Of a stretch of 8,129 bases of DNA, positions 3,658 through 8,129 are shown one piece after another. Below the pieces are notes generated by a model, which had not been told where the DNA came from, ran no database searches, and worked only from the letters and a program-made list of their open reading frames with translations. This DNA comes from Elusimicrobiota bacterium (GTDB taxonomy: Bacteria; CG03; SLGR01; PWQF01), in the NCBI GenBank assembly GCA_003557485.1, contig PWOI01000114.1, forward strand, positions 1 to 8,129, written 5' to 3'. Numbering within the stretch: position 1 is the stretch's first letter; the number at the start of each line of letters is the position of its first letter. Position numbers and translations under genes: made by a program.

Positions 3658-4683
3658 TCAACAGTTTTTACGGTCTTTTTTATTTGAGGAAGGTGTTTCT
3701 TCTTTTTCAATCTTGGTTACTACACGGTCAAAATCAGAGATGTATTTTTTATCCTGTTCCTTCCTGTATTTTTCAAATTCCTTTTCAGCCTTAAGCGCAG
3801 ATTTTTCCGCGCTTACCTTTCCAAGGTGGGTAATAAGATCTCTTTCACTCAGTTGCAGGAAATGATCCAGTTTTTCAATCCAGTCAGCCATCTTCATCAG
3901 GCGGCCCGTTGAAGCCTGCAACTCCGCAAAATCCAGAAACAATGAAACTATCAGGTTTAGCCGTTTTATCTCATCTTCAGCAAGATAGTTTTTAGCCACC
4001 TTGATATCTTGAGTAGTGATGTATTTTCCATTGAAACTCGTAAGCCCCATTAATGGTTTGGTGCTGTCAGCTCTCTTTTCGATAATTTCCGCTGCTGTAT
4101 GTCCGTGAACTGCATAATGCATCTTATTCTGGACTGTCGCGAAAAACTGCTCTGTAAGCTTGGCGTCTTTCCTGTAATCTATGCTCGTAGCGTAAATATC
4201 CGTAACCTTCTGATAAAAATTTCTCTCGCTGCTTCTAATGTCCCGAATCCGCTGAAGCAGTTCTTCAAAATAACGGGAGCGCGCTCCCTCCTGTTTCAAC
4301 CGTTCATCATCTAAAGCAAAACCTTTGATAATGTATTCCTTCAACCGCTGAGTGGCCCATATCCTAAACTGTGTCCCTCTAATTGATCTAACTCGGTAGC
4401 CCACGGAAATAATTACGACTAGATTATAGTGTTTTACCGAGTATTCCTTCCCGTCAGATCCAGTTCGTCGGAATTCCCGACATACTGATTTCTCATCAAG
4501 CTCCTTCTCCTTGAAGACATTTTGTATATGCTCGGTAATGGTTGAACGTCCCTTGTCGAACAGTTCAGCCATCTGATCCTGAGTTAGCCAGACTGTCTCA
4601 TCTTCCAGCTTGACTTGTATTCTTACCTGACCGTCTTCGGTTTTATATAGCATTACCTTAGACTGATCATATTTCTTTTTCAT
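3658..4683 (-). CDS. rhuM: RhuM family protein
   Basis: A full-length 341-residue member of the RhuM family (Virulence_RhuM), first noted in a Salmonella pathogenicity island; the biochemical function is not established. The N-terminal third carries the family signature: TVWLTQDQMAELFDKGRST (residues 30-48), which looks like a helix-turn-helix, then the CREFRRTGSDGKEYSVKHYNL segment (68-88) and RGTQFRIWAT (102-111). A middle helical region follows. The second signature is AVHGHTAAEII then KRAD and KPLMGLTSFNGK, residues 191-220. The C-terminus (290-330) is charged and likely coiled-coil. The ATG is preceded by AAAAAGGAAC, a reasonable ribosome binding site. It overlaps the end of the frame at 4667-4912 by 17 bases, which suggests translational coupling to a former partner. 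Such genes are typically accessory and often lie near restriction or mobile DNA. Confidence 0.88.
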   Translation of the reverse strand: MKKKYDQSKVMLYKTEDGQVRIQVKLEDETVWLTQDQMAELFDKGRSTITEHIQNVFKEKELDEKSVCREFRRTGSDGKEYSVKHYNLVVIISVGYRVRSIRGTQFRIWATQRLKEYIIKGFALDDERLKQEGARSRYFEELLQRIRDIRSSERNFYQKVTDIYATSIDYRKDAKLTEQFFATVQNKMHYAVHGHTAAEIIEKRADSTKPLMGLTSFNGKYITTQDIKVAKNYLAEDEIKRLNLIVSLFLDFAELQASTGRLMKMADWIEKLDHFLQLSERDLITHLGKVSAEKSALKAEKEFEKYRKEQDKKYISDFDRVVTKIEKEETPSSNKKDRKNC

Positions 4684-4912: not shown

Positions 4913-5959
4913 TCAATTTTGTTTTTGGACGCTGGTCAAGTCAACATGCTCCAGTAAGTACTCAAAAATACTTTCCGATATTATTTTGTGCCCCTTTTCA
5001 GAAGGATGGATCCAGTCGTCCTCATTTAATCTCCATGCCGGGTTGTCAATATTTTCAAATCTTCCGTGGAGATCGAGGCAATTAATTTTCACCTCATTAA
5101 GGAGCTCTCTGATACGCAAATAATGTTGGGTTGTAGTGTCGCTGTAGCGGCTCTTGAAATATGGAATAATAACAGCAAAAGAATCGACCTTTGAATTATC
5201 CAGCAGTTTCGCTGTATTAATAAACGCTGAGCGGTTAACTTCTTCTTCTGATTTACTAAAACTTTGTTCTTTGTCCATAATATTCTGAATCAGCGTGACT
5301 ATAAACCGGTATGCATACGACCTGATGAATAAGGAGGTGTTTACCGGTATTGTAAATATACCGTATGAGTTTCGGTAACATAGATAGTCTCCTTTATCAT
5401 TCTGAAAAATTATAACAGGATTTTCAAGGTCATTGAGACAGAAGGCAATAATTATCAGATCAGGGTCAAATCCCAGTATTTTATTACGTAGCACTGCGTA
5501 ATACTGAACAATCCCGTAACCGCCGACGCCACAATTCCATACTTCATAATTATATTTACTGCTTATCGCGTTTAATCTGGTCTCAATGTTTCTTACAAAT
5601 CCGTTTTCCCCGAAAAAATTACTCTGTTGCGTTATGGAATCTCCTACAATACATATCCTTATGGTATCTGTCGATTTTTCGACTGTTCTCTCCATGTCCT
5701 GAAACCCAAGTTTATTACTATTTTCGGAATTAAATTCCCAGCCAAGTAAAATATCATCCGCTGGTTGGAACTGGGCATAATTCCCCGGTGTGTTCAAACC
5801 CATGTCGTTCTTATCAGGTTCGAATCCGAAGAGACTGAAATATCTCAGGCCGATTTCCAATATCAGGAAGAATAAACATATCCCGAATGTCGCCCCTGAT
5901 AAGGCCAAGACTGATTTAATTAATATTTTTTTAATTTTATATTTTTTTTTATTAAGCAT
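4913..5959 (-). CDS. Membrane-anchored SGNH/GDSL-type hydrolase
   Basis: A 348-residue protein with a strongly basic N-terminus (MLNKKKYKIKK) and one hydrophobic segment at about residues 15-37, so it is anchored in the inner membrane with its catalytic domain outside. All four SGNH blocks are present. Block I is I-V-G-D-S-I-T with the nucleophile S108. Block II is the GVGGYG oxyanion Gly (144-149). Block III is C-L-N-D with N176. Block V is D-W-I-H with D315 and H318, followed by PSEKGH. Families of this build act as esterases or O-acyl hydrolases/transferases on cell-surface glycans or lipids; the substrate here is unknown. The gene is intact, but its start is odd. The ATG sits at or within a few bases of the 3' end of the group II intron, with no ribosome binding site just upstream. 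The first codons are extremely A-rich. It may originally have been expressed from upstream sequence now displaced by the intron. Confidence 0.88.
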   Translation of the reverse strand: MLNKKKYKIKKILIKSVLALSGATFGICLFFLILEIGLRYFSLFGFEPDKNDMGLNTPGNYAQFQPADDILLGWEFNSENSNKLGFQDMERTVEKSTDTIRICIVGDSITQQSNFFGENGFVRNIETRLNAISSKYNYEVWNCGVGGYGIVQYYAVLRNKILGFDPDLIIIAFCLNDLENPVIIFQNDKGDYLCYRNSYGIFTIPVNTSLFIRSYAYRFIVTLIQNIMDKEQSFSKSEEEVNRSAFINTAKLLDNSKVDSFAVIIPYFKSRYSDTTTQHYLRIRELLNEVKINCLDLHGRFENIDNPAWRLNEDDWIHPSEKGHKIISESIFEYLLEHVDLTSVQKQN

Positions 5960-5965
5960 AGATCT

Positions 5966-5998
5966 GGTAGGGAGTAGCCATTAGGCTACCCCCTCCCA
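5966..5998 (-). ncRNA. Group II intron domain VI with candidate branch-point A
   Basis: GGGGGUAGCC (minus strand, 5993-5984) pairs with GGCUACUCCC (5979-5970) as ten continuous pairs, one of them G-U, around a UAAU loop. Below the stem an A (position 5968 on the minus strand) is left unpaired between A-U and G-C pairs, six to ten bases before the possible 3' splice sites, as expected for the lariat branch point. Confidence 0.65.
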
Positions 5999-6002
5999 AC
6001 AT

Positions 6003-6031
6003 AACGGCTCGTACCGGCCAGGTAAGCCGCT
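6003..6031 (-). ncRNA. Group II intron domain V (catalytic hairpin), shortened
   Basis: On the minus strand AGCGGCU (6031-6025) pairs with AGCCGUU (6009-6003), including the hallmark AGC triad facing GUU with its G-U wobble. A two-base CG bulge follows on the 3' side and then the distal stem UACC/GGUA. The hairpin is 29 bases against about 34 in a standard domain V. The tip reads UACCUGG directly followed by CCGGUA, as if the terminal loop had been lost. Confidence 0.7.
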
Positions 6032-6044
6032 CCTCGATTGACAG

Positions 6045-7317
6045 CTAAGCTCTCGCTTTAAGAGTCGCATAATCATACAATAACACTAATCCCTGTTTTC
6101 TGAACCATTCAAGGTTCATCACACAGCGTACTTCTTTCCTTTCAACCGATTGCTACTTATTCATTTTAACCCATGTTCTATATGCCCGTTTCTTCCCAAA
6201 CCCCGCCTGTATCATCTTTCGCTGGAATTTTCCGGGCTTCTTCCATTTCTTCAACTGCATTGACCTCAATCTGCTCCGCACCCAACCATCTAAGTCTCTG
6301 AACAAGTATTTGAATTGATGTACCCTAAAGTATCCAACCCAACCGACCAGATACTCGTTGAGTTCGCTGATTATCTGATACATAGATAACGGATTTTCCC
6401 GGCGAGTAAGCTCTCTTACCCTTTGCTTGAACAGCTTCCGGGCTTTTCCGCTTACTCTCAGTTTCCCGCCCATTATTCCGAAACTCAAGAACGTCATTTG
6501 ATTTATCTTGCATACCCGGCTCTTTTTCTTTTTTCACTTTAAGTCCGAGTCTTTCCAGATACCTTATGACACTCTCCATTACCCTGCCGGCTGCTCTTTC
6601 GGATTTAACAAGTATCACGAAATCATCGGCCCAGCGACTGTATCTCAGCCCCCTCCTGTCAAGTTCCTGGTCTAATTCGTTCAGGACTATGTTTCCCAGC
6701 ATGGGTGAAAGCGGTGACCCTTGATGACATCCTTTTTCCGTCTTCTCGTATTCCCCGTCTATAATCACTCCAGATTTCAGTATGCGAGCTATCATCGTCA
6801 CCAGTCTCTCGTCGGATATCCTCCTTCTTATCAGTTGGAATATGAGATTATGCGGTATCTCCCCGAAGAAATTCTCCAGGTCTATCAATACACACCAATC
6901 ATACCCTTCTTTTACCGCTTTCTGAACATGTCTTATCGCCTGATGCTGGTTCTTCCCTTTGCGAAACCCAAAGTTCGATTCAGTAAATCCCGGGTCGAAT
7001 ATCTCACCAAACACCGAGTTTATGCTCTGGCTCATTATTCTGTCCATAAGACACGGAATCGACAGGGGTCTCATCTTGTTTGAACCTGCTTTTGGAATCA
7101 GCACCCTTTCTGCTGGTTTAATCCGGTATGTTCCTGCTCTTAACTTCTCGTGCAGTATCGGCAGAAGTTCCTCTTTCCTTTCCTCGAACTCCTCTACCGT
7201 CATACCGTCTACTCCCGCTGCTCCGGCGTTCTTCTTTACCTGTTGCCACGCCTCATACAGCCGCCCCGGTTCACTTATTTCTTCCAGCACTCGTTCTTGT
7301 TTTACCTGCTTCTCCAT
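6045..7317 (-). pseudogene. ltrA: Group II intron reverse transcriptase/maturase, disrupted
   Basis: This would be a 423-residue intron-encoded protein that splices its own intron RNA and reverse-transcribes it into new sites. Reverse-transcriptase blocks run in order: IPKAGSNKMRPLSIP (residues 74-88), FGFRKGKNQHQAI (116-128), V-L-I-D-L-E-N-F with D146, K-G-C-H-Q-G-S-P-L-S-P (195-205) and the active site W-A-D-D (229-232), with Trp where Tyr is usual. The maturase (X) domain follows (RVRELTRR, LVGWVGYFRV, RSRLRSMQLKKW). There is no HNH endonuclease domain. Two lesions are present. An extra base near 6522 breaks the frame between VKKEK and SRVCKINQMTFL. A TAG at 6155-6153 stands where Trp fits, after VKMNK; the same frame then continues QSVERKEV and VMNLEWFRKQGL to a TAG at 6047-6045. 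The ATG at 7317 follows AGAGAGG; an upstream TTG at 7335 is less likely. Annotators may call two pieces, ending near 6325 and starting near 6497. Confidence 0.85.
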
Positions 7318-8004
7318 AACCTCTCTTTCAAGCAATGATTATCGGACTGTGTTGGCCTTTAGGCTAAGTTCGGATACCTATTAACCTTGCAGCCTTTGGC
7401 TGTTCGGTATCATTTCACTGATTCAGTACCCCCGTTTAGTTTTCTGAACACTTTTCCACAGCTCTTAATCGACTCATTACCCCGGTTACTTCTGTCTTTC
7501 GTTCACGACTTCCCCTATCGTCAATGGCGTTTTGACGTAGCCAGACATCAGGATTTTATCCCAATGTCTAATCGTCAGAGTTTTCTCCTCCGTTCTGTTA
7601 CCAGACTTCATCGGCTCTGAGTCCTCAGTACTACTCGTGAATCTGCCACCCTCTCCTCCCGTATCGCTTCGGGGTTTCCTTATCAATACCGGTTTTATAA
7701 CACCTACAGCAACTTTCAGTGTCAGAGTAGTAGGGCTTCCCTGAGTAAGATGTATTGCCTCTCCATATACCGTCCGGCTTCACATCGGTTCGCTTACTAT
7801 CGGATACCGGGTCTGGCCTAGTCACGACAACTTGACCCGCTCCCCAACGCCATTTAGCCGGTTCGCTGTTCGCTACGTACACGGATTCTGTCTCATGCTT
7901 CCTCCAGGCCTGTCATCTCTGACAGTGCCCTTGCCTTGTTGATTTACCTTCCGTCCGATTTCGGCGGTTTACTTCTTTCAGCATATACATCATGTCAGGC
8001 GCAC
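7318..8004 (-). ncRNA. Group II intron 5' ribozyme region (domains I-IV)
   Basis: No credible gene lies in these 690 bases; open frames on either strand lack start signals and look like structured-RNA shadows. The stretch begins with GTGCGCCTGACATGATG, a typical group II 5' end, and is rich in short GC helices interrupted by GAAA/GUAA-type loops, as expected of domain I. Exon-binding sites were not assigned. Confidence 0.7.
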
Positions 8005-8012
8005 GTACACAA

Positions 8013-8032
8013 CTACGGGCTCACGCCCGTAG
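8013..8032. repeat. Perfect hairpin: likely IS200-type right-end palindrome and intron target
   Basis: CTACGGGC (8013-8020) and GCCCGTAG (8025-8032) form eight perfect pairs around a four-base loop (TCAC on the plus strand). It starts five bases after the transposase stop codon (8040-8038), where IS200/IS605 elements keep the subterminal hairpin that their Y1 transposase binds. Read on the plus strand it is followed by CATTTTTA and could also act as a terminator for anything arriving from the left. Confidence 0.65.
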
Positions 8033-8037
8033 CATTT

Positions 8038-8129
8038 TTACAGTTCAAGCTCCGCTTGTCCTCTGTCTTCTTTGCCCTGCATCTCAATATATTTTCTTAT
8101 CACGCTTTCGTTAATTCCAACCGTTGAAA
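8038..8129 (-). CDS. tnpA: IS200/IS605-type Y1 transposase (TnpA), C-terminal end only
   Basis: The last 29 residues of a protein entering from the right edge: STVGINESVIRKYIEMQG then KEDRGQAELEL and a TAA at 8040-8038. TVG followed by an acidic helix with I-R-K-Y-I-x-x-Q is how small HUH (Y1) transposases of the IS200/IS605 group end; the Tyr in KYIEMQ is the expected nucleophile that attaches to cut single-stranded DNA. The hairpin just after the stop codon supports this. The HUH motif itself lies outside the window, so the call rests on the tail and the hairpin. Confidence 0.68.
   Translation of the reverse strand, partial: STVGINESVIRKYIEMQGKEDRGQAELEL

Follow-up and report, generated by a model that had tools for sequence, protein, structure and literature searches.

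We consider it likely that a degenerate group IIC intron stands here, in sense orientation, immediately after the hairpin at the right end of an IS200-type element, and that the two elements compete for, and stack at, a site of the terminator type. The window, by which we mean the whole stretch of DNA analysed, is a complete contig of 8129 bases from a draft genome, and because of this only the tail of the IS element is present and its left end lies off the contig. Starting at the contig end and reading the minus strand, one meets the C-terminus of tnpA, a hairpin, eight bases and the group II intron.

The intron and its interrupted maturase

The intron occupies positions 5962-8004 of the minus strand (about 2043 nt), starts with GTGCG and ends with AGAT, the 3' end being approximate. 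At 8004 the 5' end reads GTGCGCC (GTGCGCCTGACATG). The domain I region (7750-7925, minus strand) was matched by the Rfam family RF02001, group-II-D1D4-3, from 7925 to 7750 with 60.5 bits against a cut-off of 32. Domain V (6003-6031, minus strand), which scores below the Rfam cut-off, was recognized by eye and by folding from its AGC triad and CG bulge, and domain VI falls at 5970-5997 on the same strand. The core of a group II ribozyme is thus represented by the GUGYG 5' end, the AY 3' end, domain I and the AGC triad of domain V, and the hairpin insertion typical of group IIC is seen in the beginning of the intron 8 nt behind a DNA hairpin. From its RNA, its start sequence and its reverse transcriptase, the intron belongs to group IIC (bacterial class C). 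No second copy was found in the genome assembly, where it is the sole intron of its kind.

The reverse transcriptase is encoded in a first frame at 6325-7317 (minus strand; the ORF may start at 7335), which ends in a shifted frame, and the maturase X domain follows in another frame at 6153-6497 (minus strand). The frameshift falls somewhere from about 6533 to 6497. The second frame ends early at a TAG (6155-6153) that interrupts the D region, and protein-like sequence runs on to 6045. Since it carries both a frameshift and a premature stop, the maturase is not functional as assembled; an assembly error alone is less likely, as there are two lesions. Pfam matches in the maturase were RVT_1 and GIIM. 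The closest PDB match of the reverse transcriptase was the GsI-IIC RT, followed by the maturases of E. rectale, and LtrA came far behind both. Reverse transcriptase, X and D regions are present with no endonuclease, and on these domains and the PDB ranking the predicted protein is class C-like. The preliminary description was right in pointing to an endonuclease-less, hairpin-guided group II intron. The reverse transcriptase is about 40% identical to the best matches found, and peptide-pattern scans of genome_contigs and viral_contigs gave no close relatives. At conserved motifs the protein (7317-6325) has QGS instead of QGG and WADD instead of YADD.

On the 3' exon side an ORF for a GDSL-type lipase/acylhydrolase (4913-5959, minus strand) begins with an ATG 2 nt past the intron end. 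With its start codon (5959) this close to the intron 3' end (5962), the original leader of the gene must be gone or displaced. A gene of the RhuM family (3658-4683; PF13310, E 6e-110) also lies close to the IS and the intron.

The probable transposase tail, its hairpin and the candidate exon-binding site

The frame upstream of the intron, STVGINESVIRKYIEMQGKEDRGQAELEL followed by a stop codon (8038-8127, minus strand), is cut by the contig end and is too short for a Pfam match. By homology it probably represents the last 29 codons and the stop codon of an IS200/IS605-type (Y1, HUH) transposase gene, with 83% identity to the Y1 transposase C-terminus in G189 and 69% to that in G058. The full-length G058 protein has 145 aa, scores 90.9 bits against PF01797 (Y1_Tnp) and carries the HVHVH motif; the match of the window tail covers the C-terminal 29 aa, and the position of the HUH motif is beyond the contig end. 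These identities agree with the transposase tail that had been read from the sequence. Neither the rest of the transposase nor a second copy of the IS tail was found in the assembly, whose one further Y1 match belongs to another gene, a 315-aa open frame on contig C155. In viral_contigs no near relatives of the IS were found by protein, and hairpin patterns gave mostly unrelated matches and one ends-only element (L116).

Between tail and intron lies a hairpin with a perfect stem of 8 bp and the loop GTGA (8013-8032, minus strand), CTACGGGC-GTGA-GCCCGTAG when read from 8032 to 8013. It is the only inverted repeat of that size within 7900-8129. Its DNA fold has a free energy of -9.8 kcal/mol (z -5.5), equalled by none of 200 shuffles, and the pattern of hairpin plus intron start occurred once in the window and not at all in 200 shuffles; the hairpin and the intron start eight bases behind it were thus confirmed as first described. 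As in IS200/IS605 elements, the hairpin is subterminal at the right end: in the IS relatives it likewise directly follows tnpA, and for this reason the window hairpin is most likely the right-end hairpin of the IS, as had been suggested, and probably also the hairpin part of the IIC target. A search of the same genome for the hairpin with and without the intron had been proposed. The hairpin was found there once, the window site was not met in an empty form lacking the intron, and the rest of the 16 phylum genomes searched do not contain the hairpin.

After the hairpin, three IS relatives and one ends-only element continue with GTATCTA and then C or T, beyond which the sequences diverge. By comparison with these relatives, the tip of the window IS is expected about 8 nt behind the hairpin, where the intron begins, i.e. 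about the 5' exon spacer TTGTGTAC (8005-8012, minus strand), whose last bases are the candidate IBS1. Without gaps, TTGTGTAC takes the place of GTATCTAC of the relatives with 5 of 8 bases identical, and the intron would stand at the tip. With a shift of 4 nt, the joined flanks read GTAC followed by CTAT, close to GTATCTAT, and the intron would stand inside the IS. The candidate EBS1 (GUGA; 7822-7825, minus strand), placed by covariance alignments, would make three pairs with the exon (GUG with UAC, one of them G-U) and then a mismatch. There is no T-tract at the window junction.

One history that may be read from this junction, to which we give somewhat less than an even chance, is that the IS200 element came first and that its right-end hairpin later served the intron as a homing target. 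The hairpin, the spacing and the EBS1 fit agree with it, as does the junction having no T-tract of an ordinary terminator, and joining the flanks over the intron position could re-form a conserved right-end motif. However, the alignment that restores the motif is 4 nt off in spacing, and an IS inserting between a terminator and an existing intron gives the same structure; at the bcs site of E. coli, described below, this second course of events is the more likely one. The tips of related IS elements end in CTAC, and GUG of the candidate EBS1 can pair with UAC at the window exon. The GUGA of EBS1, in place of an A-rich loop fitting the T-tracts of terminators, could mean that the intron has adapted to IS ends, or that a decayed element has drifted. 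That the intron lineage adapted its EBS1 to the TAC tip of this IS200 group, and so specialized on transposon right ends, appears very improbable; if true, a retroelement would have the end of another transposon as its niche.

Recurrence of the pairing and order of arrival

The same arrangement was found in unrelated bacteria. The Limosilactobacillus reuteri plasmid NZ_CP065542.1 carries a full-length IS200/IS605 tnpA, behind which stand, in turn, the right-end hairpin of the element, ATGATTA and a IIC intron whose reverse transcriptase is intact. Three intron-free copies of a related IS in L. plantarum share the sequence through TATGATT and then diverge, and therefore the L. reuteri intron is at the IS tip or one base outside it. 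On the E. coli plasmid NZ_AP025210.2, IS200C is followed by its hairpin, ATATTTATTGT and a IIC intron; in E. coli chromosomal copies the intron start is preceded by ATATTTATTTAT. Other introns have loops that suit the exon ends they adjoin: the EBS1 of the E. coli intron, ACAA, pairs with TTGT at its own exon end. Its class C reverse transcriptase (L069, 2825-4171) was seen to have no conserved stretch matching NKGAAGVDDMT of the relatives. An IS200-type right end and the intron were joined at at least two distinct junctions in about 16 E. coli genomes, and some of the paired introns are fragments. This count derives from 22 genomes in which one place matched 80% or more of the junction query, against 1191 carrying the intron, and leaves out six of the 22 (mouse strains M6-M19) which cover only 82% of the query and, from inspection of M19, appear to have a similar terminator without IS.

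In the resolved pairs the intron is 0-3 nt outside the IS200-type right end, and those of the Bacillota and the Enterobacteria agree in order and strand as well as in this spacing. The proposals that the IS would carry the intron to new sites, and that the intron splits the IS end and stops its departure, find no support in these pairs, since the tip is intact and the intron lies beyond it; the IS would leave without the intron. The pairing does recur, in L. reuteri and E. coli, but the proposed nested partnership of a dedicated kind is not supported, nor is the intron confined to IS hairpins. Other copies of the L. reuteri intron (97% protein identity) lie behind plain terminators with no IS beside them, and the relatives of the window intron drawn by the reverse transcriptase search, which are of the same RNA family and begin GTRYGYC...CATG, are mostly found behind terminator hairpins.

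Searches for further pairs were mostly negative. No tnpA was found upstream or nearby in any of 37 introns drawn by the reverse transcriptase search, not all of which are class C and some of which are cut by contig ends, and no intron start was found behind the IS in 30 IS200-type loci. A scan of genome_contigs for a hairpin plus intron start gave five matches, of which L055 is a real intron that follows a plain terminator and the others are not introns; the same pattern had no match in viral_contigs, and window-type TnpA and the window reverse transcriptase gave no joint match in plasmids. The Microscilla plasmid pSD15 (L072), with an IS200/IS605 tnpA about 480 bp behind a IIC intron RT gene on the same strand, was rejected, the order being the reverse of that in the window. 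The absence of pairs from the 37 and 30 loci, and the single real intron of the genome_contigs scan, would suit plain coincidence, in which a IIC intron stands behind an ordinary hairpin that happens to be part of an IS remnant. This is unlikely, however, given the independent pairs of the Bacillota and the Enterobacteria with their common order, strand and spacing.

The order of arrival could be followed at one E. coli site. In the plasmids NZ_AP023428.1 and NZ_CP099352.1 the intron of NZ_AP025210.2 occupies the same place between bcsB and bcsC, behind a terminator and TTTATTGT, with no IS200C upstream. In NZ_AP025210.2, IS200C is found exactly between the tail of that bcsB-bcsC terminator and the intron. 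The allele with the intron and no upstream IS is common, and the allele with both elements was found in two records. The 3' flank of the bcs intron is a decayed IS200 left end (STnc490 RNA; L070, 2966-3540, and L069, 4176-4750). At this site the intron probably came first and the IS second, although an older IS may have been lost precisely.

For the window, a corresponding history, in which the IS later entered between a terminator hairpin and the intron and the contig stops short of the original terminator, is given about one chance in three. It draws on the occurrence in E. coli of both kinds of allele, one having the IS and one lacking it, and on the position of every resolved IS copy after a terminator T-tract. 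Set against it are the missing left flank of the window element and its IS group, which is outside those shown to target terminators.

A probable shared insertion site behind terminators

Recurrence of the pairing in unrelated bacteria is most likely explained by both elements inserting behind terminator-like hairpins, with neither steering nor carrying the other. The left ends of 19 IS200-type copies were placed by comparison of copies, and as two share one flank, these gave 18 distinct sites (loci L060-L062, L068, L069, L073, L075, L082-L084, L090, L101-L103 and L108-L112). All 18 lie behind a terminator-like hairpin, after the T-tract, and involve several IS groups; most come from a few multi-copy genomes, and all belong to IS200 groups other than that of the window. 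In 16 of the 19 copies a perfect stem, 6 bp long or longer, ends no more than 14 nt from the IS, and the stems of the other three, judged by eye, are imperfect. Among random positions in the same loci 5.8% were behind a hairpin and 0.6% behind one with a T-rich tail, but this control mixes genic and intergenic positions, so that a comparison with intergenic DNA would show less enrichment than these figures suggest.

The ribonucleoproteins of IIC introns recognize a DNA hairpin, normally an intrinsic terminator, together with a few exon bases paired to EBS1. By what we infer from knowledge of these families, the intron would be reverse-spliced about 8 nt behind the recognized hairpin. IS200-type TnpA elements likewise insert behind terminator hairpins, 3' of the T-tract, and have a similar hairpin and a short tail at their own end. 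The stacked layout would then be a terminator, the IS200 element with its right-end hairpin and tail, and the IIC intron. Because IS200-type elements themselves insert behind terminators, the adjacency can arise in either order, and pairing follows from the use of one kind of site on the same strand. This shared-site reading is built on the anatomy and class of the intron, the recurrence in unrelated lineages and the terminator habit of both elements, all observed, and on a recognition chemistry and an order of events that are inferred.

The insertion of class C introns behind terminators is well documented (PMC8919778; Robart et al. 2007, as cited there). The window intron is like the class C/group IIC introns of O. 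iheyensis, GsI-IIC and E. rectale in its 5' sequence, RF02001 domain I, endonuclease-less class C-like reverse transcriptase and hairpin about 8 nt upstream. It differs from them in that its hairpin belongs to a transposon end, its reverse transcriptase is about 40% identical to the best matches, its maturase is broken and its EBS1 is GUGA where theirs is A-rich. The group IIC-attC introns of integrons likewise use the hairpin of a mobile element as target, which is an attC site in their case and an IS200-type right end in the window. With IS200C and the Lactobacillaceae copies of the IS200/IS605 family the window shares the Y1 TnpA C-terminus directly followed by the right-end hairpin, whereas only the tail is present and a 2-kb intron begins close to the place expected for the tip. 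IStrons also bring an intron and an IS200/IS605-type transposon side by side; they hold a group I intron and an IS605-type transposon moving as one chimeric unit (PMC4227781). In contrast, the window has a group II retroelement beside the IS, nothing suggests that the two move together, and identity as an IStron was rejected, since the intron matches RF02001 and gave no group I match. No reports of IS200-IIC pairs or of a terminator preference of IS200 were found in the literature searched, to which most subscription papers do not belong, and either may already be known to specialists.

If the shared-terminator model is true, one structural landmark attracts two mobile elements that are among the simplest in bacteria, a retroelement and a transposon of single-strand DNA, and they stack there in a fixed order and on a fixed strand. 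This would give a testable reason for where both elements spread without breaking genes, and nests of this kind would not always have to be read as cooperation.
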